Positions 4,739 to 58,032 of a DNA stretch of 64,000 nt are shown here, in pieces. The stretch comes from Baekduia alba. Its GTDB lineage: Bacteria; Actinomycetota; Thermoleophilia; Solirubrobacterales; Solirubrobacteraceae. A program made the position numbers and the translations under genes. The notes under the pieces are model-generated. The model saw only the letters and a list, made by a program, of their open reading frames with translations. It searched no databases and was not told where the DNA came from. Numbering within the stretch: position 1 is the stretch's first letter; every line of letters begins with the position of its first letter. The stretch is taken from contig NZ_CP114013.1 in NCBI RefSeq assembly GCF_028416635.1, positions 992,001-1,056,000 of the forward strand. Direction: 5' to 3'.

Positions 4739-5426
4739 GGTCGCACCCGCTCCGCCGGTCTTCGGCGCCAGCTGGCTCGAGGATCTCCTCGGACTCCGGC
4801 CCGCGCTCGCCGGACTGGACCGGCTTCAACGACACATCGCCACCTACGAGTGGTTCGGTCGGCTGTGCGACGAGCTCGCATCCTTCGATGCCGTACACCC
4901 GGACACTGGCGATTGCTCAGACGAGCTGCAGAAGGTTCGCCGGTGCCTGCAGGACGCCCACATGGAGGCGTCCGAGATGATGGACGACGCTCGCGACCGG
5001 TGGCGTATCTCTACCGGCGATGGTGTCCGCGTCGACCGGGAGCGCCGACGCCGGGCCAAGATCCTACGCCGCTCCTTCCGCGTCGATCGTCGGTCGACGT
5101 GCGCGCGTCAGCGTGGCGCTCGCGCTCGCGGCGCCGGGCGTCCGGCCGCTCGCCGGCGCGCTGTCTCGACGCCCTCGGCGTCAGACGACCCTGGCCCACC
5201 AGGCCATCTAGGCCCCGCCGGCGGACGAAGCCGGCATTCCATCCACCTCACGGCGACGAGCACCGCTCGCGCCCTCCATACGCTCTTCCGCTGCCCTGAC
5301 GGGTGGCTCTTCGTCGCGCCCGGTTTCGGTGCGCGGCATGGTCGCTACCCGTCGTCTACGCGCCAGGGCTCGGGCCGTGGCGACGGGCGCGGCCGGGTTC
5401 TGTGCCTCGTGGCGGTGGTCGCATGA
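4719..5426 (+). CDS. Hypothetical early-region protein, possibly frameshifted in its second half
   Basis: Residues 1-115 are convincing: a soluble helical protein with WLEDLLGLRPALAGLDRLQR, a Cys pair region and an acidic helix (MEASEMMDDARDRWRIS). From about residue 120 the frame becomes Arg/Ala/Ser-rich, while the +1 frame at 5100-5211 reads a more natural ARVSVALALAAPGVRPLAGA. A frameshift near 5060-5100 is therefore possible. No family is recognised. The gene opens the block that leads to the RecA-like ATPase, and its stop overlaps the next start (ATGA at 5423). Confidence 0.45.
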   Translation: MSQTSPKVAPAPPVFGASWLEDLLGLRPALAGLDRLQRHIATYEWFGRLCDELASFDAVHPDTGDCSDELQKVRRCLQDAHMEASEMMDDARDRWRISTGDGVRVDRERRRRAKILRRSFRVDRRSTCARQRGARARGAGRPAARRRAVSTPSASDDPGPPGHLGPAGGRSRHSIHLTATSTARALHTLFRCPDGWLFVAPGFGARHGRYPSSTRQGSGRGDGRGRVLCLVAVVA

Positions 5427-5761
5427 AGCGCCAGCGCATGACGCAGACCGCCCGGGTCGAGCAGCTCCTGCGCCGACGCGGCGAGCTGGGCATCACCGCG
5501 GCGGACTTCCTGCTGCCCGACGTCGCGGACGGCGGCCCGCCCATCCTGCGCTTGGCCGCCCGCGTGGACGAGCTCCGTTCGCGTCACGGCGTGACGATCG
5601 TGACGCTGTTCGAGCACAAGGGCGACGCGCGCGTCGCTCGGTATGTGCTGCGGGAGCAGCACTTCGTCACGGCGTCCATGCCGGTCAACGCGCCCGATGC
5701 CTCGGACCAGCTGCTGGCGCCGCCCCCGAGGTCCGCCGTGTTGGGCTGGGAGGAGGCGTGA
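5423..5761 (+). CDS. Winged helix-turn-helix protein (HTH_39-like)
   Basis: 112 aa from ATG 5423, with ATGA overlap to the previous frame. Residues 8-60 (VEQLLRRRGELGITAADFLL then LRLAARVDELRSRHGVTIVT) have the layout of the small phage/ICE winged-helix domain found near replication genes: helix, spacer, RLAARVDELR recognition helix, beta wing. It is probably a DNA-binding accessory of the replication block. Its stop overlaps the next GTG start (GTGA at 5758). Confidence 0.65.
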   Translation: MKRQRMTQTARVEQLLRRRGELGITAADFLLPDVADGGPPILRLAARVDELRSRHGVTIVTLFEHKGDARVARYVLREQHFVTASMPVNAPDASDQLLAPPPRSAVLGWEEA

Positions 5762-5991
5762 TTACCTCGCTCAGCGTCGCGGAGGCGCGGGCGCAGATCC
5801 TGCACGCCGCGCTGCTCAAGAGCCCCGCAGCCACGTGCGTCGACGACCTGCCGCGGGCTCTGCCGGAGTTCGCACGCTGGCGGCCCGACATCCTCGGCGC
5901 CGCGATCGCCGACCTCGTCGCCGACGGCCGCATCACCGAGAGCCCGGCCGGACGACTCCGGGTCCACGTCGTCGAGGAGCCAACCTCATGA
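5758..5991 (+). CDS. Small helical/winged-helix protein, 77 aa
   Basis: GTG start at 5758 within a GTGA overlap, with GGAGG upstream. The sequence includes SVAEARAQILHAALLKSPAA and then LGAAIADLVADGRITESPAG followed by RLRVHVVEE. The helix-helix-wing order suggests a second small winged-helix protein in tandem with the first. Specific family not recognised. It overlaps the ATPase start by ATGA (5988), so the three genes are translationally linked. Confidence 0.6.
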   Translation: MITSLSVAEARAQILHAALLKSPAATCVDDLPRALPEFARWRPDILGAAIADLVADGRITESPAGRLRVHVVEEPTS

Positions 5992-7166
5992 GCCCGCTGG
6001 TCGACGGCGGCGCGTTCATCCTCGACGCACCCGAACACGTGCCGGCGGTCTGGGGAGACGAGGGCAACGGCGTCCTCTGGGCCAAAGGCGAACCGCTCCT
6101 GCTGTGCGGACCGCCCGGTGTCGGCAAGTCGACGCTGATCCAGCAGGTCATGCGCGCCCGGATGGGGCTCTTCGGCGACCTCGAAGTGCTCGACCATATC
6201 GTCGCCCCGAGCACCAAGCGTGTGCTGTACCTCGCCTGCGATCGCCCCGCGCAGATCGCTCGCTCGATGCGACGCCTGTTCCGTCCCGAGCATCGAAAGA
6301 TGGTCGGCGAGCTTCTCGTCGTCTGGCGCGGGCCGTTGCCCTACAACCTGGTCGACAACCCCGGTCAGCTCGCGCTCGACGCCGCCGCCCAGGGCGTCGA
6401 CACCGTCATCATCGACAGCCTCAAGGACATCGCCTCGCCGCTCACCAGCGACGAGGTCGGCTCGGCCGTCAAGGCGTGCATGGCCGCGCTCAACGAGGCC
6501 GGCATCGAGGTCTGCGCCCTCCACCATCAGCGCAAGGCCAACGGGGACAACAAGAACCCGGACAAGCTCGAAGACGTCTACGGGTCGACGTGGATCACCG
6601 CGGGAGCCGGCAGCGTCCTGCTCCTCAAGGGCCAGGCCGGAGACGCCGTCGTCGAGCTCAAGCACCTCAAGCAGCCCGCAGACGAGGTCGGGCCGCTGAC
6701 GGTCGTCCACGACCACGCCACCGGCACGAGCACCGTGGAGCGCGAGCGCAGCATCCGAGACGTCCTCGCGGCCGAGTGGCGCCTCACCGCTCCCGAGGCG
6801 GCGGCCATCCTCCACGGGCCCACACCGAGCCGCAACGTCGTCGAGAAGGTCCGCCGCAAGCTCGACAACCTCGTCGCCAACGGCGTCGCCTACAAGGACC
6901 CGCCAGCGGCGCCGCGAGCGCCCATCACGTACGTCTACTCAGCAGACGACCGTGCAGAGCGTGCAGAGGACCGTGTAGCTACACGGTCGCTACACGGTCC
7001 TGCACGAACCCCTAGGGATCCGCTGCACGATGACTACACGGCACTGCACGCCGACGCTGCAACCCGCCCCAACCCCCTTAAGGGGGCGGGTGCAGCAGAA
7101 CGTGCAGAGACCTCGACTCCCGTTAGCGCCCTCACCGCCGACGTCTTCGCCGAGGAAGCCGCATGA
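5988..7166 (+). CDS. RecA-type (AAA_25/RepA-like) replication ATPase
   Basis: 392 aa. Walker A GPPGVGKST at residues 41-49, Walker B DTVIIDS at 138-143, then a KxxHxxR-like ALHHQRKANGDN segment (about 170-185) typical of hexameric RepA/DnaB-family ATPases. Residues 250-310 look like a C-terminal winged helix (RDVLAAEWRLTAPEAAAILH, VVEKVRRKLDNLVANGV). The last ~75 residues are low-complexity and overlie a cluster of repeated hexamers (6952-7107). It probably acts as the element's replicative helicase or loader in the cytoplasm. No primase is seen beside it. Both flanking genes overlap it by ATGA. Confidence 0.8.
   Translation: MSPLVDGGAFILDAPEHVPAVWGDEGNGVLWAKGEPLLLCGPPGVGKSTLIQQVMRARMGLFGDLEVLDHIVAPSTKRVLYLACDRPAQIARSMRRLFRPEHRKMVGELLVVWRGPLPYNLVDNPGQLALDAAAQGVDTVIIDSLKDIASPLTSDEVGSAVKACMAALNEAGIEVCALHHQRKANGDNKNPDKLEDVYGSTWITAGAGSVLLLKGQAGDAVVELKHLKQPADEVGPLTVVHDHATGTSTVERERSIRDVLAAEWRLTAPEAAAILHGPTPSRNVVEKVRRKLDNLVANGVAYKDPPAAPRAPITYVYSADDRAERAEDRVATRSLHGPARTPRDPLHDDYTALHADAATRPNPLKGAGAAERAETSTPVSALTADVFAEEAA
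6952..7107. repeat. Iteron-like cluster inside the 3' end of the ATPase gene
   Basis: In 156 bp there are four GTGCAG (6952, 6961, 7090, 7102), three CTGCAC (7000, 7023, 7044) and four CTACACGG/CCGTGTAG units (6971, 6979, 6990, 7034). The cluster includes the perfect 18-bp palindrome ACCGTGTAGCTACACGGT (6970-6987). A 14-bp palindrome CCCCCTTAAGGGGG (7073-7086) is nested in a larger hairpin (7057-7095). The encoded protein tail is correspondingly low in complexity. It is a candidate replication origin. Confidence 0.55.
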
Positions 7167-15427: not shown

Positions 15428-15619
15428 CCGCCGACTGTAAACCCCTCACCGGTCGCGCCGGCGCGACGTCGGACGAATGGCGACGCCCACTGCTAAGCAC
15501 TCTCGCCTCTCGTGCAAGCCACCCCTGGTGCCCGATCGTCCGGCGCAGCCGGCGCCGGCGGCGACACCGCTGGCGCTGGTTGTGGGTCGCTGCCCGATCG
15601 GTGCCCGCAGGAGGCGTCG

Positions 15620-15946
15620 ATGCGTGAGCTCGGGCGTCGACTACGCGCGGCGTGGCGAGTGCTGCGTCACGGCGACGAGAGCACGGCAGCCGGCAGCGCG
15701 AGGGACCAGGTGGTGGTCTCGATGGAGGAACTTGATGAGCTGGTCGGCCCGACATCCTCGGCGCCGGCCTGCCCGAGCGCTGGCACCGGACGGCGACATC
15801 AGAGCAGCTCGCAGCGATCGCCACTGCGGCGAACTGCGCTCGCGGGCTCCGCGCGACCGAGTGGGTCGATGTCGAGGCTGGACGATGGCCTGCCACGGCG
15901 CCAGCGGCTGAGCAGCCGGGCGCGTGAGCTTGCGAAACGCTCTTGA
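15620..15946 (+). CDS. Hypothetical protein, copy 1, probably frameshifted
   Basis: AGGAGG 6 nt before ATG 15620. The first ~41 residues (MRELGRRLRAAWRVLRHGDE ... MEELDELV) are convincing, but after about 15738 another frame (15739-15927) gives the more natural RPDILGAGLPERWHRTATSE, then QLAAIATAANCARGLRATEW. This suggests a frameshift joining the two, or two overlapping genes. The defect is identical in copy 2, so it predates the duplication. No family is recognised. It precedes the regulator promoter. Confidence 0.45.
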   Translation: MRELGRRLRAAWRVLRHGDESTAAGSARDQVVVSMEELDELVGPTSSAPACPSAGTGRRHQSSSQRSPLRRTALAGSARPSGSMSRLDDGLPRRQRLSSRARELAKRS

Positions 15947-15972
15947 CACGCCAGTGCCATATATGGCACTAT
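15943..15972 (+). promoter_or_regulatory. Promoter with 18-bp palindromic operator for the RHH gene (copy 1)
   Basis: Consensus -35 TTGACA at 15943-15948. After an 18-bp spacer the -10-like CACTAT lies at 15967-15972. The perfect palindrome AGTGCCATATATGGCACT (15953-15970) fills the spacer and overlaps the -10 box. The GTG start of the ribbon-helix-helix gene follows only 6 nt after the -10, so the transcript is probably leaderless and self-repressed. Confidence 0.7.
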
Positions 15973-15978
15973 GTGGTC

Positions 15979-16125
15979 GTGGCGAAAGGGAAGACTCAGG
16001 TCCGGATGCCGCCGGCACTTCACGAGCAGCTCGAGCAGCGCGCCGCCGAGCAGGGCGTCTCGCTCAACAGCTTGATCGTGAACTTGCTCGCTGGCGGTGT
16101 CGGGTTCAAGCTCCCACCCGCCTGA
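15979..16125 (+). CDS. Ribbon-helix-helix (Arc/HicB-type) regulator, copy 1
   Basis: 48 aa from GTG 15979, chosen because it lies directly behind the promoter; no Shine-Dalgarno is present, consistent with leaderless translation. The N-terminal strand KGKTQVRMPPALHEQLEQRA followed by AEQGVSLNSLIVNLLAGGVG is a complete RHH fold (strand, helix A, turn, helix B). It probably binds the palindrome at 15953-15970 and controls the downstream operon (HhH protein, two small proteins, excisionase, integrase). No toxin partner is adjacent. Confidence 0.8.
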   Translation: MAKGKTQVRMPPALHEQLEQRAAEQGVSLNSLIVNLLAGGVGFKLPPA

Positions 16126-16193
16126 CCAACACATATAAGTCGGCCCCGCGCGGTTGCACCCGCCGGGGCCACGTCCCAAGGAGCAGTCACTCC

Positions 16194-16721
16194 ATGAGCA
16201 ACTACCACGGTACCGACCCGTCCGGGTCGAACGACCACACGCCCGACCACATCGCCATCGAGGCGGCCGAGGGCATCACCGCGTTCGAGCGACTGCTCTC
16301 CCGCAGCGCCAAGCCCGCCGAGTCCGTGTGGACGCTGGAGGGACGCGTCGCTCAGACGATCAGCGAGCACGCGTACGCCGCTGCGCACGAGCTGCCAGCC
16401 GAGTCCGAGCTGCGCGCGCAGCTGCTCGACCAGGCCGAGGACTGGCTCCTGTTCGCGTCAATGCGCGGCCAGACGCGCTACGACCAGTTCGACGAGGCTC
16501 AGCGCCTCTCCAAGGGCGAGAACGGCATCTGGACCTGGGAGGCCCTTCCGCTGGAGCTGCGACGGACGTTCTACAACGAGCGTGTCTACACCATCGACGA
16601 GGTCCGCGAGATGGCCGCCGACCGCGAGCTGCAGTCCATCAACGGCGTCGGCCCCGCACGCGAGCGTCAGATCCTCGAGGCGCTCGCCGCCACCGACGCC
16701 AACCAGGACTGGCTGCGATGA
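16194..16721 (+). CDS. Helix-hairpin-helix protein, copy 1
   Basis: 175 aa from ATG 16194 with AAGGAG 8 nt upstream. The N-terminal half is helical (ITAFERLLSRSAKPAESVWT, EDWLLFASMRGQTRYDQFDE). The C-terminus holds one HhH unit, LQSINGVGPARERQILEALA (about 147-166), a non-specific DNA-backbone binding motif. Such a protein inside an integration operon could assist excision, replication or DNA bending. The family is not otherwise recognised. It overlaps the next start (ATGA). Confidence 0.7.
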   Translation: MSNYHGTDPSGSNDHTPDHIAIEAAEGITAFERLLSRSAKPAESVWTLEGRVAQTISEHAYAAAHELPAESELRAQLLDQAEDWLLFASMRGQTRYDQFDEAQRLSKGENGIWTWEALPLELRRTFYNERVYTIDEVREMAADRELQSINGVGPARERQILEALAATDANQDWLR

Positions 16722-16933
16722 CCGCGACCCTCATCGCCTTTCCCGGTGGGCGGTCACGTACCGTCGGGGAATGGGAGGCCGCCGCCGAACTCGCGGCCGC
16801 AGACGCGATCGATCGCTTCCTCGGATCGAACCCCTGCCCGGTGCCGGGTCTCAGCCAGGTCGCCATTGATCTCGCCGAGTGGGCGGCCCGCCTCCGAAGC
16901 GATGCCGGCGCACGCAGAGCAGAGGCTCGCTGA
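16718..16933 (+). CDS. Small hypothetical protein (71 aa), copy 1
   Basis: Begins in an ATGA overlap with the HhH gene. It reads MTATLIAFPGGRSRTVGEWE, then helices AAELAAADAIDRFLGSN and LSQVAIDLAEWAARLRSDAG. No recognised domain. The tight overlaps on both sides (ATGA, TGATG) mean it is made stoichiometrically with its neighbours. Confidence 0.6.
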   Translation: MTATLIAFPGGRSRTVGEWEAAAELAAADAIDRFLGSNPCPVPGLSQVAIDLAEWAARLRSDAGARRAEAR

Positions 16934-17115
16934 TGGCCCTTCTCACCACCCCTGGGCGCCTGCGCCGCCTCGCCGCCGAGTACGACCAGGCGGCCGCGCA
17001 CCTGCGCAGCGCAGCCGAGGTCGTCGAGCACGATCCGGAGAACCCCGACGTCGACAACATCATCAACACGATCGTCGAGCGCTTCCCCGCGCTCGACAGG
17101 GCTGGAGGCGCCTGA
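16933..17115 (+). CDS. Small hypothetical protein (60 aa), copy 1
   Basis: Starts in a TGATG overlap. The sequence MALLTTPGRLRRLAAEYDQA followed by AAHLRSAAEVVEHDPENPDV and NIINTIVERF is helical with an acidic hinge and may be a small dimerising accessory factor. No family is recognised. It is directly followed, with overlap, by the excisionase. Confidence 0.6.
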   Translation: MALLTTPGRLRRLAAEYDQAAAHLRSAAEVVEHDPENPDVDNIINTIVERFPALDRAGGA

Positions 17116-17309
17116 TGCTGCATGACCCCGACAACGAGCCGGAGGCCTACGTCAACCGTGACGAGATGGCCCGCCGGCTCGGCGTGAGCGTGAGCCTGGT
17201 CGACCAGATGGTGGCCCGGAATGAGATCCCGAGCGTGACGTGGGGGCGCCGCACGCGGCGGTTCCTGCCCTCGGAGGTCATCGCCGCCCTCAAGGAGCGT
17301 GACACCTGA
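17115..17309 (+). CDS. xis: Excisionase (HTH_17/MerR-like), copy 1
   Basis: 64 aa from ATG 17115. RDEMARRLGVSVSLVDQMVA followed by IPSVTWGRRTRRFLPSEVIA is the standard excisionase helix-turn-helix plus wing (about 15-57). It sits directly before the integrase with an overlapping stop/start, the usual xis-int order. It would bend attachment-site DNA and favour excision. In this copy it is followed by a truncated integrase, so dosage of Xis to functional Int may be raised to 2:1. Confidence 0.8.
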   Translation: MLHDPDNEPEAYVNRDEMARRLGVSVSLVDQMVARNEIPSVTWGRRTRRFLPSEVIAALKERDT

Positions 17310-18211
17310 TGCCCCGTCGATCGACCGGCCAGGTCATCCCGAAGGAGACGCAACGCGGCACCGTGTACGCCCTGCGATTCCGCGCCTACGGCCAGCGCCG
17401 CTACGTGACGATGCCCGACGGCACGTCCGAAGATCAGGCGCGTCGCGAGCTGGCCTACATCCTGCTGCAGGTCGAGCGCGGCGAGTGGGTCCCGCCGGCG
17501 GCGGTCGAGGTCGAGCTGCCGCCGGATGACCCGACGTTCCACGTGTTCGCGTCGGAGTGGTGGGCGGCGAAGAAGCTCACTGTGCGCCCGAACACCGTCA
17601 ACGCGTACGAGAACGAGCTGACGGTGCACCTGCTGCCGTTCTTCGCGCGGCACCTGCTCTCGCAGATCACCGTGGCGGAGGTCGACCGCTACCGCGAGCA
17701 CAAGGTCCGCGAGGGCCGCCTCGGTGCCGACACCATCAACAAGACGCTCACGCGCCTCGGCCAGATCCTCGATGTCGCTGAGGAGCGTGGTCTCATCGAC
17801 CGCAACCCGCTGCGGGTCAACCCGCGCAACCGCAAGCTCCGTGTCGCGAAGAAGCGGCCGGTGTACCTCGACACCGCCGAGCACATCACCGCGCTCCTGC
17901 AGGCGGCGAGCGAGGTCGACGCGACGAAGGGTGCACGGACGTCGGGCCGGCGCGCGCTGATCGCCACGCTCGTCTTCTCGGGGCTCCGCGTCAGCGAGGC
18001 GTGCGAGTTGCGTTGGCGCGATGTCGACCTCGCCGGCGGCCGCATCACGGTCGGCAAGGCGAAGACCGATGCCGGCAGCTACCGCGAGGTCGACATCCGG
18101 GCCGTCCTCCGCGACGAGCTGCTCGCGTACAAGGCCGGTCGTCGCGCTCGTCAGGTCGAGCGCGACGCCTTGGTGTTCCGATCGGTGCCCGCAGGAGGCG
18201 TCGATGCGTGA
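17309..18211 (+). pseudogene. Integrase copy 1, truncated by the duplication junction
   Basis: Residues 1-290 equal the intact integrase (19893-21188). At the junction (18177/18178) the frame continues for ten foreign residues (RSVPAGGVDA) to TGA. The arm-binding and core-binding domains and the first catalytic Arg (R227) are kept. The His-x-x-Arg, second His and nucleophile Tyr are lost. It cannot recombine, but if made it could still bind arm sites and interfere with the intact enzyme. Confidence 0.9.
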
Positions 18212-18530
18212 GCTCGGGCGTCGACTACGCGCGGCGTGGCGAGTGCTGCGTCACGGCGACGAGAGCACGGCAGCCGGCAGCGCGAGGGACCAGGTGGTGG
18301 TCTCGATGGAGGAACTTGATGAGCTGGTCGGCCCGACATCCTCGGCGCCGGCCTGCCCGAGCGCTGGCACCGGACGGCGACATCAGAGCAGCTCGCAGCG
18401 ATCGCCACTGCGGCGAACTGCGCTCGCGGGCTCCGCGCGACCGAGTGGGTCGATGTCGAGGCTGGACGATGGCCTGCCACGGCGCCAGCGGCTGAGCAGC
18501 CGGGCGCGTGAGCTTGCGAAACGCTCTTGA
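18204..18530 (+). CDS. Hypothetical protein, copy 2, probably frameshifted
   Basis: Exact duplicate of 15620-15946, including AGGAGG, the convincing first ~41 residues and the same frame change after residue ~41. Here it overlaps the 3' end of the truncated integrase frame by 8 bp, so it may be translated from the xis-int1 message, unlike copy 1. Confidence 0.45.
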   Translation: MRELGRRLRAAWRVLRHGDESTAAGSARDQVVVSMEELDELVGPTSSAPACPSAGTGRRHQSSSQRSPLRRTALAGSARPSGSMSRLDDGLPRRQRLSSRARELAKRS

Positions 18531-18556
18531 CACGCCAGTGCCATATATGGCACTAT
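18527..18556 (+). promoter_or_regulatory. Promoter/operator for the RHH gene (copy 2)
   Basis: Identical to 15943-15972: TTGACA at 18527-18532, palindrome AGTGCCATATATGGCACT at 18537-18554, CACTAT at 18551-18556, then GTG after 6 nt. The element therefore has two operator sites for the same repressor. Confidence 0.7.
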
Positions 18557-18562
18557 GTGGTC

Positions 18563-18709
18563 GTGGCGAAAGGGAAGACTCAGGTCCGGATGCCGCCGGC
18601 ACTTCACGAGCAGCTCGAGCAGCGCGCCGCCGAGCAGGGCGTCTCGCTCAACAGCTTGATCGTGAACTTGCTCGCTGGCGGTGTCGGGTTCAAGCTCCCA
18701 CCCGCCTGA
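18563..18709 (+). CDS. Ribbon-helix-helix regulator, copy 2
   Basis: Exact duplicate of 15979-16125 (48 aa, leaderless GTG). It heads the only operon that ends in an intact integrase. With two genes and two operators, repressor dosage and operator number rise together. Confidence 0.8.
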   Translation: MAKGKTQVRMPPALHEQLEQRAAEQGVSLNSLIVNLLAGGVGFKLPPA

Positions 18710-18777
18710 CCAACACATATAAGTCGGCCCCGCGCGGTTGCACCCGCCGGGGCCACGTCCCAAGGAGCAGTCACTCC

Positions 18778-19305
18778 ATGAGCAACTACCACGGTACCGA
18801 CCCGTCCGGGTCGAACGACCACACGCCCGACCACATCGCCATCGAGGCGGCCGAGGGCATCACCGCGTTCGAGCGACTGCTCTCCCGCAGCGCCAAGCCC
18901 GCCGAGTCCGTGTGGACGCTGGAGGGACGCGTCGCTCAGACGATCAGCGAGCACGCGTACGCCGCTGCGCACGAGCTGCCAGCCGAGTCCGAGCTGCGCG
19001 CGCAGCTGCTCGACCAGGCCGAGGACTGGCTCCTGTTCGCGTCAATGCGCGGCCAGACGCGCTACGACCAGTTCGACGAGGCTCAGCGCCTCTCCAAGGG
19101 CGAGAACGGCATCTGGACCTGGGAGGCCCTTCCGCTGGAGCTGCGACGGACGTTCTACAACGAGCGTGTCTACACCATCGACGAGGTCCGCGAGATGGCC
19201 GCCGACCGCGAGCTGCAGTCCATCAACGGCGTCGGCCCCGCACGCGAGCGTCAGATCCTCGAGGCGCTCGCCGCCACCGACGCCAACCAGGACTGGCTGC
19301 GATGA
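18778..19305 (+). CDS. Helix-hairpin-helix protein, copy 2
   Basis: Exact duplicate of 16194-16721, with the same AAGGAG ribosome site and the same C-terminal HhH unit at residues ~147-166. It lies in the operon with the functional integrase. Confidence 0.7.
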   Translation: MSNYHGTDPSGSNDHTPDHIAIEAAEGITAFERLLSRSAKPAESVWTLEGRVAQTISEHAYAAAHELPAESELRAQLLDQAEDWLLFASMRGQTRYDQFDEAQRLSKGENGIWTWEALPLELRRTFYNERVYTIDEVREMAADRELQSINGVGPARERQILEALAATDANQDWLR

Positions 19306-19517
19306 CCGCGACCCTCATCGCCTTTCCCGGTGGGCGGTCACGTACCGTCGGGGAATGGGAGGCCGCCGCCGAACTCGCGGCCGCAGACGCGATCGATCGC
19401 TTCCTCGGATCGAACCCCTGCCCGGTGCCGGGTCTCAGCCAGGTCGCCATTGATCTCGCCGAGTGGGCGGCCCGCCTCCGAAGCGATGCCGGCGCACGCA
19501 GAGCAGAGGCTCGCTGA
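19302..19517 (+). CDS. Small hypothetical protein (71 aa), copy 2
   Basis: Exact duplicate of 16718-16933, again in ATGA and TGATG overlaps with its neighbours. Function unknown. Confidence 0.6.
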   Translation: MTATLIAFPGGRSRTVGEWEAAAELAAADAIDRFLGSNPCPVPGLSQVAIDLAEWAARLRSDAGARRAEAR

Positions 19518-19699
19518 TGGCCCTTCTCACCACCCCTGGGCGCCTGCGCCGCCTCGCCGCCGAGTACGACCAGGCGGCCGCGCACCTGCGCAGCGCAGCC
19601 GAGGTCGTCGAGCACGATCCGGAGAACCCCGACGTCGACAACATCATCAACACGATCGTCGAGCGCTTCCCCGCGCTCGACAGGGCTGGAGGCGCCTGA
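19517..19699 (+). CDS. Small hypothetical protein (60 aa), copy 2
   Basis: Exact duplicate of 16933-17115, overlapping the excisionase start. Function unknown. Confidence 0.6.
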   Translation: MALLTTPGRLRRLAAEYDQAAAHLRSAAEVVEHDPENPDVDNIINTIVERFPALDRAGGA

Positions 19700-19893
19700 T
19701 GCTGCATGACCCCGACAACGAGCCGGAGGCCTACGTCAACCGTGACGAGATGGCCCGCCGGCTCGGCGTGAGCGTGAGCCTGGTCGACCAGATGGTGGCC
19801 CGGAATGAGATCCCGAGCGTGACGTGGGGGCGCCGCACGCGGCGGTTCCTGCCCTCGGAGGTCATCGCCGCCCTCAAGGAGCGTGACACCTGA
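19699..19893 (+). CDS. xis: Excisionase, copy 2
   Basis: Exact duplicate of 17115-17309 (HTH plus wing, WGRRTRRF). Its stop overlaps the start of the complete integrase, so this is the copy coupled to functional recombination. Confidence 0.8.
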   Translation: MLHDPDNEPEAYVNRDEMARRLGVSVSLVDQMVARNEIPSVTWGRRTRRFLPSEVIAALKERDT

Positions 19894-21188
19894 TGCCCCG
19901 TCGATCGACCGGCCAGGTCATCCCGAAGGAGACGCAACGCGGCACCGTGTACGCCCTGCGATTCCGCGCCTACGGCCAGCGCCGCTACGTGACGATGCCC
20001 GACGGCACGTCCGAAGATCAGGCGCGTCGCGAGCTGGCCTACATCCTGCTGCAGGTCGAGCGCGGCGAGTGGGTCCCGCCGGCGGCGGTCGAGGTCGAGC
20101 TGCCGCCGGATGACCCGACGTTCCACGTGTTCGCGTCGGAGTGGTGGGCGGCGAAGAAGCTCACTGTGCGCCCGAACACCGTCAACGCGTACGAGAACGA
20201 GCTGACGGTGCACCTGCTGCCGTTCTTCGCGCGGCACCTGCTCTCGCAGATCACCGTGGCGGAGGTCGACCGCTACCGCGAGCACAAGGTCCGCGAGGGC
20301 CGCCTCGGTGCCGACACCATCAACAAGACGCTCACGCGCCTCGGCCAGATCCTCGATGTCGCTGAGGAGCGTGGTCTCATCGACCGCAACCCGCTGCGGG
20401 TCAACCCGCGCAACCGCAAGCTCCGTGTCGCGAAGAAGCGGCCGGTGTACCTCGACACCGCCGAGCACATCACCGCGCTCCTGCAGGCGGCGAGCGAGGT
20501 CGACGCGACGAAGGGTGCACGGACGTCGGGCCGGCGCGCGCTGATCGCCACGCTCGTCTTCTCGGGGCTCCGCGTCAGCGAGGCGTGCGAGTTGCGTTGG
20601 CGCGATGTCGACCTCGCCGGCGGCCGCATCACGGTCGGCAAGGCGAAGACCGATGCCGGCAGCTACCGCGAGGTCGACATCCGGGCCGTCCTCCGCGACG
20701 AGCTGCTCGCGTACAAGGCCGGTCGTCGCGCTCGTCAGGTCGAGCGCGACGCCTTGGTGTTCACGACCGCGGCCGGCACCGCGCGCGACAAGGACAACGT
20801 CCGCTCGAAGGTGCTCGCGCCGGTCGTCGCCCGCGCCGGCAAGATCCTCGCGGCGGCCGACGCGATGCCGCTGCCGGTCGGCGTGACCTCCCACAAGCTG
20901 CGGCACACGTTCACGTCGATCCTGTTCGCGCTCGGCGAGGACGCGCCCTACGTGATGGGTCAGCTCGGGCACGCCGACCCGAAGTTCACGCTGCGCGTCT
21001 ACGCCCACGTGATGCGCCGCGGCGACGACGAGCGGGCCCGGCTGAAGGCCCTCGTCGAGGGCGCCGAATGGGCACCATTGGGCACTAAGACGGAAACGGC
21101 CCCCGAGTCGGGGGCCGAGATTCCTGATGGGCGCGGCGGGTTTCGAACCTGCGACCTCTCGCGTGTGAAGCGAGCGCTCTCCCACTGA
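19893..21188 (+). CDS. int: Tyrosine integrase (intact copy)
   Basis: 431 aa. Arm-binding N-terminus (about 1-65, RGTVYALRFRAYGQRRYVTM), SAM-like core-binding domain (about 78-165) and catalytic domain with R227, H334-x-x-R337, H360 and Y370 (LRVYAHV). It integrates the element at tRNA-Val together with Xis. The frame does not stop inside the element: it runs through the 45-bp attR repeat (GRGGFRTCDLSRVK) and ends five codons later, antisense within the tRNA gene. After excision the same frame would instead end with DEDDQGETPGNAEEHGG encoded beyond attL. The tail is beyond the catalytic Tyr, so both forms may be active. Confidence 0.95.
   Translation: MPRRSTGQVIPKETQRGTVYALRFRAYGQRRYVTMPDGTSEDQARRELAYILLQVERGEWVPPAAVEVELPPDDPTFHVFASEWWAAKKLTVRPNTVNAYENELTVHLLPFFARHLLSQITVAEVDRYREHKVREGRLGADTINKTLTRLGQILDVAEERGLIDRNPLRVNPRNRKLRVAKKRPVYLDTAEHITALLQAASEVDATKGARTSGRRALIATLVFSGLRVSEACELRWRDVDLAGGRITVGKAKTDAGSYREVDIRAVLRDELLAYKAGRRARQVERDALVFTTAAGTARDKDNVRSKVLAPVVARAGKILAAADAMPLPVGVTSHKLRHTFTSILFALGEDAPYVMGQLGHADPKFTLRVYAHVMRRGDDERARLKALVEGAEWAPLGTKTETAPESGAEIPDGRGGFRTCDLSRVKRALSH
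21097..21117. terminator. Element-borne terminator next to attR
   Basis: CGGCCCCC pairs with GGGGGCCG around GAGTC. It lies within the integrase tail on the plus strand but directly downstream of the leftward tRNA-Val. It therefore replaces the tRNA's own terminator (284-310) that integration moved ~20.8 kb away. Confidence 0.6.
21126..21170. repeat. attR: 45-bp direct repeat
   Basis: Identical to 313-357. It overlaps both the integrase 3' coding sequence and the 3' half of the intact tRNA-Val, so the element's crossover region is coding on one strand and tRNA on the other. Confidence 0.9.
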
Positions 21189-21199
21189 GCTACGCGCCC
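21128..21199 (-). tRNA. tRNA-Val (anticodon CAC)
   Basis: 72 nt read leftward: 7-bp acceptor GGGCGCG/CGCGCCC, D arm GCTC/GAGC, anticodon arm CTCGC-TTCACAC-GCGAG (anticodon CAC), five-base variable region and T loop TTCGAAA, discriminator A. CCA is not encoded. The T stem GCAGG/CCCGC has one A-C mismatch as I read it. It is the attachment site of the element; the integrated state keeps it whole because the 45-bp repeat restores its 3' half. Confidence 0.92.
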
Positions 21200-27817: not shown

Positions 27818-29611
27818 GTGCACGTGCCTGCCGGACCTTCGCTCTACCGCCGCCATCGCCCGCGGACGTTCGCCGACGTCATCGGCCAGGAGCACGTCGT
27901 GCGCACGCTCCGCCACGCCATCGAGCGCGGGCAGGTGCACCACGCCTACCTGTTCGTCGGCTCGCGCGGGACGGGCAAGACGTCGATGGCCAAGATGCTC
28001 GCGGCGTGCCTGAACTGCGTCAACGGGCCGACCACCGAGCCGTGCGGCACCTGCGAGTCGTGCGTGTCGATCGCGTCCGCGACGTCGATGGACGTCATCG
28101 AGATGGACGCCGCGTCCAACAACTCGGTCGACGACATCCGCGAGCTGCGCGACTCCGTCCAGTACGCCCCGGTCACCGGCCGGTACAAGGTGTACATCTT
28201 GGACGAGGCGCACATGCTGTCCACGGCGGCGTGGAACGCGTTCCTGAAGACCTTGGAGGAGCCGCCGCCGTCGACGATCTTCGTCCTCGCGACGACCGAG
28301 GCGCACAAGGTGATGGACACGGTCGTCGACCGCTGCCATCGCTTCGACTTCCGCCGCCCGACGGTCGAGCAGCTCGCGACGGTCGTGGACCGCGTCGCGG
28401 GCAAGGAGTCGATCGAGATCGCGCCCGAGGCGGTCGCGCTGGTCGCGCGCAACGCGACGGGCTCGTACCGCGACGCCCTCGGGACGCTCGAGCAGCTCGT
28501 GACCTACTCCGGGTCGTCGATCGCGACCGAGGACGTGCTGGCGGTGCTCGGCGTCGCCGACGACGACCTGCTGTTCGGGGCGTTGGACGCCGTGGGCGCG
28601 CGTGACGCGCGAGCGGCCTGGCAGGTCGCGGCGCGGCTGGCCGACTCCGGCCGCGACGCCGCACAGTTCCTGCGCGACCTCGAAGCGCACACGCGTGACG
28701 TGCTGGTCGTCCAGACGCTCGGCGAGGTCCCGTCGCAGCTGGCGATGACCACCGAGCGCGACGCTCGGCTGGCCGATCAGGCACGGCGCCTGACGGGCGC
28801 CGACTCGGTCCGGATGCTCGACCTGCTCGCCGCCGGGATGCGCCTGGCCAAGGACGGGGCCGACGCGCAGACGCAGCTCGAAGTGGCGCTGGTGAAGGCG
28901 GCGGCGCCGGAGGTCGACCCGTCGACGCGCGCGCTGCTGGCGCGGCTGGAGCGGATGGAGGCGGCCGCCGCCCCGACGCCCGCGCCGGCCGTTGCCGCTC
29001 CGACGCCCGCGCCGGCCGTTGCCGCTTCGCCGCCGGCCGCCGCCGCGCCGCCCGCTCCTGCGCCCGCCGGGTCCGCTCCGCCGCCGCCGCCCGCTCCCGG
29101 GTCCGCGCCGCCGCCGCCCGCCGAGCCGGTCGCCTCCGCTCCGCCGCCGGCCGCCGCGCCCGAGCCCGCGCCGCAGCCTGCGGCCGTCGCCGTCGTCGCC
29201 GTCGCCGTCGCCGAGCCGGTCGCGCCGCTCGGCGAGCTCGATCTCGCGATGGTCCAGGAGCTCTGGCCCGCGGTGCTGCAGAACGTCGCCGAGGGCAATC
29301 AGCTCCTGGCCGGCTGCCTCGCCGAGGCCCGGCCGGTCTCGGTGAGCGGCCGCGACGTCACGCTCGCGTTCACGCCGGCGTGCAGCTTCCAGAAGCGCAA
29401 GGCGGAGGATCCCGCCGCGCGCCAGCAGTTGACGACCGCGTTCAAGGAGCTCACCGGCATCGCGCCGCGGCTGGTCTTCGAGACGCGCGAGCCCGAAGAG
29501 CTCGGCGCGGAGCCCGAGGCCATCAGCGAGGATGACTTCATCGCCCGTCTCCGGGCAGAATTCGACGCCGTCGACCACGAGCCCGACCACGAAGAGCAGG
29601 AGCAGGCCTGA
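27818..29611 (+). CDS. dnaX: DNA polymerase III subunits gamma/tau
   Basis: 597 aa. Walker A VGSRGTGKTS (48-56), zinc ligands C67, C76, C79, C82, Walker B LDEAHML (about 128-134), SRC-type sensor region and clamp-loader lid domain to about 370. A long Pro/Ala linker (about 385-470) leads to the tau-like C-terminus (LWPAVLQNVAEGNQLLAGCL), which contacts DnaB and Pol III. Start may be GTG 27818 or GTG 27824, both just behind a TAAGCT box. It overlaps ebfC by TGATG. I see no slippery heptamer for a short gamma form. Confidence 0.95.
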   Translation: MHVPAGPSLYRRHRPRTFADVIGQEHVVRTLRHAIERGQVHHAYLFVGSRGTGKTSMAKMLAACLNCVNGPTTEPCGTCESCVSIASATSMDVIEMDAASNNSVDDIRELRDSVQYAPVTGRYKVYILDEAHMLSTAAWNAFLKTLEEPPPSTIFVLATTEAHKVMDTVVDRCHRFDFRRPTVEQLATVVDRVAGKESIEIAPEAVALVARNATGSYRDALGTLEQLVTYSGSSIATEDVLAVLGVADDDLLFGALDAVGARDARAAWQVAARLADSGRDAAQFLRDLEAHTRDVLVVQTLGEVPSQLAMTTERDARLADQARRLTGADSVRMLDLLAAGMRLAKDGADAQTQLEVALVKAAAPEVDPSTRALLARLERMEAAAAPTPAPAVAAPTPAPAVAASPPAAAAPPAPAPAGSAPPPPPAPGSAPPPPAEPVASAPPPAAAPEPAPQPAAVAVVAVAVAEPVAPLGELDLAMVQELWPAVLQNVAEGNQLLAGCLAEARPVSVSGRDVTLAFTPACSFQKRKAEDPAARQQLTTAFKELTGIAPRLVFETREPEELGAEPEAISEDDFIARLRAEFDAVDHEPDHEEQEQA

Positions 29612-57464: not shown

Positions 57465-57618
57465 CATGAACGCCGCGGGTTTCGCCCTCTGGGCGAACAC
57501 CCGCATCGCCAGGCGAGCCCCCTGGGCGAGCTCTAGCCCTCCATGGACGCCGCGGGTTTCGCCCTCTGGGCGAACACCCGCATGGCTAGGCGAGCCCCCT
57601 GGGCGAGCTCTAGCCCTC
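57465..57618. repeat. Two tandem 77-bp repeats with hairpins between convergent genes
   Basis: 57465-57541 and 57542-57618 are about 95% identical (few differences near 57506 and the first bases). Each unit holds a strong hairpin: GCGGGTTTCGCCC against GGGCGAACACCCGC. Each ends with GAGCTCTAGCCCTCCAT, which includes the last codons and stop of the leftward gene at 57610. They probably act as a doubled bidirectional terminator. Confidence 0.85.
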
Positions 57619-58032
57619 CATCGGGTGCCAGCCCCGGCCCTCCTTGCGGATCAGCCCCTCCTTCTGGAGGCCGGGGAGCACCCGATAGAGGTAGTTCTGC
57701 TGGATGCCCATCTGCTCGGCGATCTCCGGGATCGTGATGCCGGGGTTGGTCGTGACCAGCTCCAGCGCCTGCTTGCCGCGGGTGCCCGACCCGCGGGGGC
57801 GACCGCGCCGCCCGTTGCCCGAGCCGGGGCCGCCGGCCGGTGACGCGCCACCGCCACCGCCACCGCCACCGCTGCCGCGACGGCGCGTGGCCACGCCGGG
57901 GGCGGGCGTCGTGCCGACGCCGTCCAGCGCGGCGATCGCCGCCTCCAGGCGATGGAACTCGTCCACCAGTGGACGGAGCTCCTTGAGACGCTCCTGCATC
58001 TCGCGCCGCTTCTCGTCCAGGAAATCTGCCAT
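57610..58032 (-). CDS. Coiled-coil plus winged-helix DNA-binding protein
   Basis: 140 aa. N-terminal coiled coil (about 1-38, MADFLDEKRREMQERLKELR), a Gly-rich linker with eight consecutive Gly (about 53-62), an AT-hook-like GRRGRPRGSG (about 74-83) and a C-terminal winged helix with LELVTTNPGITIPEIAEQMG and IQQNYLYRVLPGLQKEGLIR. The order (oligomerising coil, flexible linker, DNA-binding end) resembles nucleoid-associated silencers such as Lsr2 in outline, though the domains differ. Divergent promoter region has TTACTA-T-TAGTAA (58054-58066), an unusually AT-rich palindrome. Confidence 0.75.
   Translation of the reverse strand: MADFLDEKRREMQERLKELRPLVDEFHRLEAAIAALDGVGTTPAPGVATRRRGSGGGGGGGGASPAGGPGSGNGRRGRPRGSGTRGKQALELVTTNPGITIPEIAEQMGIQQNYLYRVLPGLQKEGLIRKEGRGWHPMEG

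Follow-up and report, generated by a model that had tools for sequence, protein, structure and literature searches.

An array of short repeats in the helicase gene of an integrated element

The window analysed here is a stretch of 64,000 nucleotides (64 kb) from Baekduia alba, a section of a single 5.86-Mb contig. It contains an integrated element of 20.8 kb (313-21170) that carries a gene for a RepA/DnaB-type helicase, and the last quarter of the helicase open reading frame (ORF; 5988-7166, + strand) holds a dense array of short repeats (6951-7107), a candidate for the element's replication origin. Features of the helicase region and of the element's ends are collected in Table 1.

In the AlphaFold2 model of the helicase (predicted local distance difference test score [pLDDT], 84.7), the C-terminal winged helix spans residues 256-317, with helices at 256-263 and 268-276, a recognition helix at 282-297 and a wing at 301-304/314-317. 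Tail residues 322-356 and 365-392 are predicted to be disordered (pLDDT <50). A profile of 34 relatives gave RSF1010 RepA (1g8y) as its first and best solved match (E 3.1e-4), and fold comparison of the helicase pointed to DnaB, T7 gp4 and Twinkle. The DnaB N-terminal domain is fused in two relatives tested, and had no match in the proteins of the window or of L016, the locus of its closest relative.

All seven GTGCAG/CTGCAC hexamers reported in a preliminary description of this DNA were located, by reading and by a script listing (starts 6952, 6961, 7000, 7023, 7044, 7090 and 7102). Its count of four CTACACGG units holds if both strands are included, with three on the + strand (6979, 6990 and 7034) and one present as the complement CCGTGTAG (6971), but not on one strand alone; its palindrome of 18 bp is in fact one of 20 bp. 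The unit type of the window can be written CTRCACG; two unit types are present, and units occur on both strands. The large hairpin was also confirmed (DNA fold, -17.7 kcal/mol; z -4.4), with none of 200 shuffles equally stable, and the palindrome region (6945-7005) likewise folds as single-stranded DNA (z -3.9).

The preliminary description held that repeats at this density exceed what amino acid constraint can produce, and this proved correct. The 7-mer pair score of 6951-7109 was 58, a value reached in none of 20,000 synonymous redraws from the gene's own codon usage (mean 9.8; maximum 46) and in none of 20,000 same-codon permutations of the segment (maximum 47). Together, the two tests ruled out protein constraint on the tail as the cause of the repeats. 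No other 159-bp window of the element is as dense in repeats as the array (54; runner-up 34). In the 64-kb window as a whole the array ranks only seventh, and the six denser spots all lie outside the element.

Table 1. Coordinates of the helicase, its repeat array and other features of the element
Feature	Position	Strand	Details
Attachment-site copy, left end of integrated element	313-357	n/a	Identical 45-bp direct repeat at 21126-21170
Gene upstream of helicase; possible accessory DNA-binding protein	5423-5761	+	Weak winged-helix match, Pfam HTH_39 3.6e-4, under family cut-off
Short ORF overlapping helicase gene start	5758-5991	+	No family match in Pfam and PHROG scans
RepA/DnaB-type helicase gene, 392 amino acids	5988-7166	+	AAA_25 core, C-terminal winged helix, disordered tail from 322; Pfam AAA_25 1.6e-15; phrog_6012 DNA helicase 4e-84
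Three - strand units	6950-6978	-	CTGCACG 6951-6957, CTGCACG 6960-6966, CTACACG 6972-6978
Perfect 20-bp palindrome, two units head-to-head	6969-6988	n/a	GACCGTGTAGCTACACGGTC
Six + strand units	6979-7050	+	Starts 6979, 6990, 7000, 7023, 7034, 7044; spacings 11, 10, 23, 11, 10 bp
G+C-rich hairpin	7056-7096	+	DNA folding; tip CCCCCTTAAGGGGG; GTGCAG unit (7090) in outer arm; core common to L016
Final unit, inverted, downstream of hairpin	7101-7107	-	CTGCACG on - strand
Tyrosine integrase of element	19893-21188	+	Pfam Phage_integrase 1.8e-17; phrog_1 1.2e-57
Attachment-site copy, right end of element	21126-21170		Within 3' part of tRNA-Val (21128-21199, - strand); identical 45-bp repeat

Position and architecture of the array among relatives

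To compare relatives, we took the best 80 of 125 loci from an alignment scan of bacterial genomes, together with 39 and 65 loci from alignment scans of viral contigs and a few more from other genomes. Removal of near copies left 82 representatives with <75% identity to one another, 38 from genomes and 44 viral. By title, these best 80 of the 125 bacterial-genome loci were actinobacterial except for one Gemmatimonadales metagenome-assembled genome. Full-length relatives in isolated phages came from 27 mycobacteriophage records. A single-protein scan of the viral contigs, where the alignment scans did recover relatives, found none, and neither did tblastn with two queries in a plasmid collection.

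An array was present at the helicase 3' end in 62 of the 82 representatives (33/38 genomic, 29/44 viral), and the densest 180-bp repeat window of the locus fell there in 66 of 119 loci, against an expectation of 5.0. Of six larger viral contigs, 46 to 97 kb long, four have their highest repeat density at the array. Of the 62 array-bearing representatives, 54 have the densest part of the array past the stop codon and only eight have it inside the ORF (the window, L016, L053, L064, L090, L097, L182 and L192). Because so many arrays lie past the stop codon, we regard the array as a conserved feature of the DNA and not of the protein, and its location inside the gene as incidental. The idea of an origin embedded in the 3' end of an ATPase gene, put forward in the preliminary description, thus stands as regards the origin, which is the best reading of the array, while the embedding appears fortuitous. 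A conserved tail protein was also considered and ruled out: the tails of the window and L016 share little except the hairpin-encoded P-x-PLKGAG, and most relatives end before the array.

The closest relative, from Paraconexibacter antarcticus (60% identity; L002 and L016 denote one and the same locus), has GGTCACG units and their complement at the position where the window has CTRCACG, and the hairpin core CCCCCTTAAGGGGGCGGGTG is common to both. What is conserved, then, is the position, the architecture and mostly a CACG core, and the unit sequence itself varies. The preliminary description had proposed asking whether the repeats are kept as DNA while the tail drifts; the comparison favours a cis-acting element in this sense, but not one whose unit sequence is retained.

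Clear units have the form NNN-CACG, in which NNN is constant inside an element and differs among elements (AAT, AGT, CTT, GGT and others). In the 44 representatives that have both an array and a clear unit, 289 units lay on the + strand (that of the helicase) and 22 on the - strand, and the spacing of same-strand units peaked at 9-12 bp. Many arrays also contain a box, AACCGCAGGTCAG. The 27 kb of array region contain 33 copies of its exact form CCGCAGGTCA, all of them on the + strand; the flanks, 22 times larger at 597 kb, contain 10 on the + strand and 3 on the - strand. This is a 73-fold and strand-specific enrichment. Some arrays have cores other than CACG: TTACG (as ATTACG) in L081 and L065, CGGGCGAC in L079 and CCGATAACCG in L094; with L117 and L186, where CGCCAGACA and AACCGGACA join this list, they form a natural test set for a recognition code.

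In many loci the array is followed by a G+C-rich hairpin, often with TT, TTTAG or GTA at its tip. At +180 to +320 from the end of the domain, 36 of the 82 representatives have a hairpin that ranks among the top 5% for its locus, where about four would be expected. These 36 stems all differ, so it is the pairing and not the sequence that is kept. Two hairpin patterns searched in the viral contigs gave no match.

Repeats are often bound by regulators, and an array situated after the helicase core and before the gene that follows, with a hairpin that could act in RNA, might serve as an operator and an attenuator or terminator for the genes downstream. We consider this quite improbable. A terminator-like T-rich flank (or an A-rich one opposite) accompanies only 2 of 28 strong hairpins; Rfam 15 had no match in the window between 4000 and 9500 at E up to 1, and Rfam in 15 loci returned tRNAs only; and the downstream genes differ between phage-like and relaxase-bearing elements while the array stays.

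Unit identity and residue 285 of the helicase

We related protein sequence to unit identity in a set of 45 representatives with <75% core identity and a clear unit, leaving out the window for its two unit types. The column most associated with the shared unit was residue 285, which lies at the beginning of the recognition helix in the model (z 5.1; family-wise value 0.026 across all columns and 0.001 across the helix only). At a 60% cut-off, residue 285 again came first (z 6.8; all-column 0.001; helix-only 0/3000). Unit identity appears to track this residue, which we take as moderate evidence for the helicase as the protein that reads the units.

Alternatively, the array could be an origin whose initiator is another protein, such as the small winged-helix product of 5423-5761 or a host protein; the helicase would then only be recruited, as RepA is alongside RepC in RSF1010. 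The weak HTH_39 match upstream of the helicase is in keeping with such an arrangement, as is the separate iteron-binding RepC of RSF1010 (PMC4234260). Two observations make it unlikely. In neighbourhood clustering, only the helicase was found in nearly all loci (121), whereas the next clusters by position comprised 57, 42 and 41 loci and did not include the window, and the association with the unit peaks within the helicase's own recognition helix. The helicase is thus, as judged from these neighbourhoods, the constant partner of the array.

Mobile elements that carry the array

Many Streptomyces loci share one gene order: an integrase-type gene, an HTH_31 regulator, the helicase, the array, DUF2637, a MobC/NikA-like gene and a relaxase. 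This family, seen at L041 (7117-8850) and the related loci L016-L095, has a DnaB_N-AAA_25 helicase and apparently consists of integrative mobilisable elements. A relaxase-family gene lies about 3 kb downstream in 25 clustered loci (Relaxase E 8.5e-10 in the tested member, L041). On the viral side, the array was present in all 26 records tested, and an HK97-type phage portal exceeded the cut-off in 12 of them.

Sites of Streptomyces translocases are short repeats, which together with the neighbouring relaxase gene would fit a DNA-transfer site, either an origin of transfer (oriT), at which the relaxase would nick, or a site of clt type to which a TraB translocase would bind. This is highly improbable, since no relaxase was found in the 26 array-bearing viral records, 12 of which carry a phage portal (TraB genes were not searched for), and since the array adjoins the helicase and not the relaxase. 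A partition site, that is, a parS-like centromere for a low-copy extrachromosomal state, is also distinctly improbable: ParB_N exceeded the cut-off in only 1 of the same 26 records, the attachment sites and integrase indicate that the window's element is carried by the chromosome, and the array is fixed to the helicase gene.

A candidate iteron origin with its own helicase as proposed reader

Taken together, these comparisons make it very likely that the array is a replication origin, whether it is bound by its own helicase or by another initiator. In the specific model that we favour and consider probable, 6951-7107 is the iteron origin of the element, and the helicase recognises it through its C-terminal winged helix. 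The units would be iterons, about one per helical turn, bound by the winged-helix domain of the RepA/DnaB-type helicase whose gene they lie in, and this binding would collect helicase subunits at the array. Upon strand separation the hairpin would fold and aid loading of the hexamer onto single strands, and the loaded hexamer would open a fork, with priming by the host or the element. The array lies in frame here only because the stop codon of the window's gene falls after it, and the tail that it encodes is a by-product, as comparison with the relatives shows.

Several observations weigh against this model. No array was detected by the criterion used in 20 of the 82 representatives, including relatives in isolated mycobacteriophages, and none was seen at the same place when the mycobacteriophages LittleE and Gaia were inspected; this type of helicase can therefore manage without an array. 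At a 65% cut-off, residue 285 came second (z 3.9; helix-only 0.015) and residue 142 was the best column (all-column 0.22), and a test of residue class by base class gave no significant pair (best 0.36). The window's own copy is atypical, with no box and with units on both strands, and its hairpin, though it folds well, is interrupted by unpaired bases and falls outside the top 5% of its own locus (0.174) under ungapped scoring. No broad A+T-rich opening region was found, mean A+T being about 0.35-0.41 across the array and 0.27-0.43 before it. The strand-asymmetry shift that the preliminary description had suggested looking for gave no help: there was no GC-skew switch at the array within the element, and among six viral contigs the GC-skew minimum lay at the array in one (G821), near it in one (G823) and elsewhere in four.

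Among known systems, the closest mechanism appears to be that of the staphylococcal pathogenicity islands (SaPIs), in which, according to the sections of PMC7581432 that treat them, the C-terminal domain of the Rep helicase recognises iterons directly downstream of its own gene. The SaPI rep-ori and the putative origin of SCCmec Cch2, as outlined in the same sections, share with the present locus an initiator helicase with a C-terminal DNA-binding domain (here predicted) and short repeats at or just past the 3' end of the helicase gene (PMC7581432). By analogy, the array would work like the SaPI rep-ori. It does not belong to the SaPI type, because the helicases described there are of DUF927 or Primase_Cterm types (PMC7581432) and the motor here is AAA_25, of RepA/DnaB type; the G+C-rich setting, box and hairpin are further differences.

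RSF1010 oriV, with RepA, RepB' and RepC, resembles the present locus in its RepA-family helicase, its iterons and the stem-loops near its origin, as far as it is covered in PMC4234260, but there a separate RepC reads the iterons, whereas here the winged helix on the helicase is proposed to do so and the units are short (core about 7 bp). The portion of that article on pRN1 describes a stem-loop just 3' of the replication gene that is required in cis for replication, and a replication protein with a winged helix (PMC4234260). Both features recall our locus; in pRN1, however, the protein is a primase joined to a superfamily-3 helicase, and the origin, a stem-loop of 100 bp, has no comparable array of iterons. 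In phage lambda the origin lies within the reading frame of the initiator gene O, as mentioned in PMC7157519, whereas an in-frame array is the exception here (8/62 relatives). PMC7157519 also describes a RepA from extrachromosomal mycobacterial prophages. It is a plasmid-type initiator with a helix-turn-helix at its N terminus and, as far as its description goes, differs from the present helicase.

A broader proposal, which in our judgement could equally well hold or fail, is that the array exemplifies a widespread actinobacterial class of origin. In this class a replicative helicase of RepA/DnaB type (RecA fold) with its own origin-reading winged helix would act as initiator, loader and helicase. 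Each element would evolve an iteron word of its own, NNN followed by a core that is mostly CACG, to which the first turn of the recognition helix would be matched. The resulting origins would be specific to their replicon, would not interfere with one another, and would occur in prophages, satellites and relaxase-bearing elements alike. If so, the array would mark the origin of a large group of actinobacterial prophages and integrative mobilisable elements that have received little study, and the helicase would be one of DnaB/RepA type that works without a separate initiator to bind the origin. The element-specific words would amount to a readable protein-DNA code and could yield compatible replicons for actinobacteria. 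We found no description of the array in the open-licence literature of PubMed Central, including by its box sequence; papers elsewhere may contain one.

Other features of the element and window

Pfam and PHROG matches identified phage tail genes in the element, tail-fibre or collar-like. Neither a portal nor a terminase large subunit was found among the element ORFs scanned (313-21170), and for this reason the element may be a degenerate prophage or a satellite. It also contains a tandem duplication of 2585 bp, with identical copies at 15594-18178 and 18178-20762, that may be real or an assembly artefact. At the end of the first copy the integrase ORF is truncated (17309-18211); at the end of the second it is full-length (19893-21188). 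Outside the element, chromosomal positions 57465-57621 hold two tandem 77-bp copies that are 96% alike. No spot in the 64-kb window is more repetitive than 28964-29228, a stretch of low-complexity G+C-rich repeats with periods of 15 to 51.
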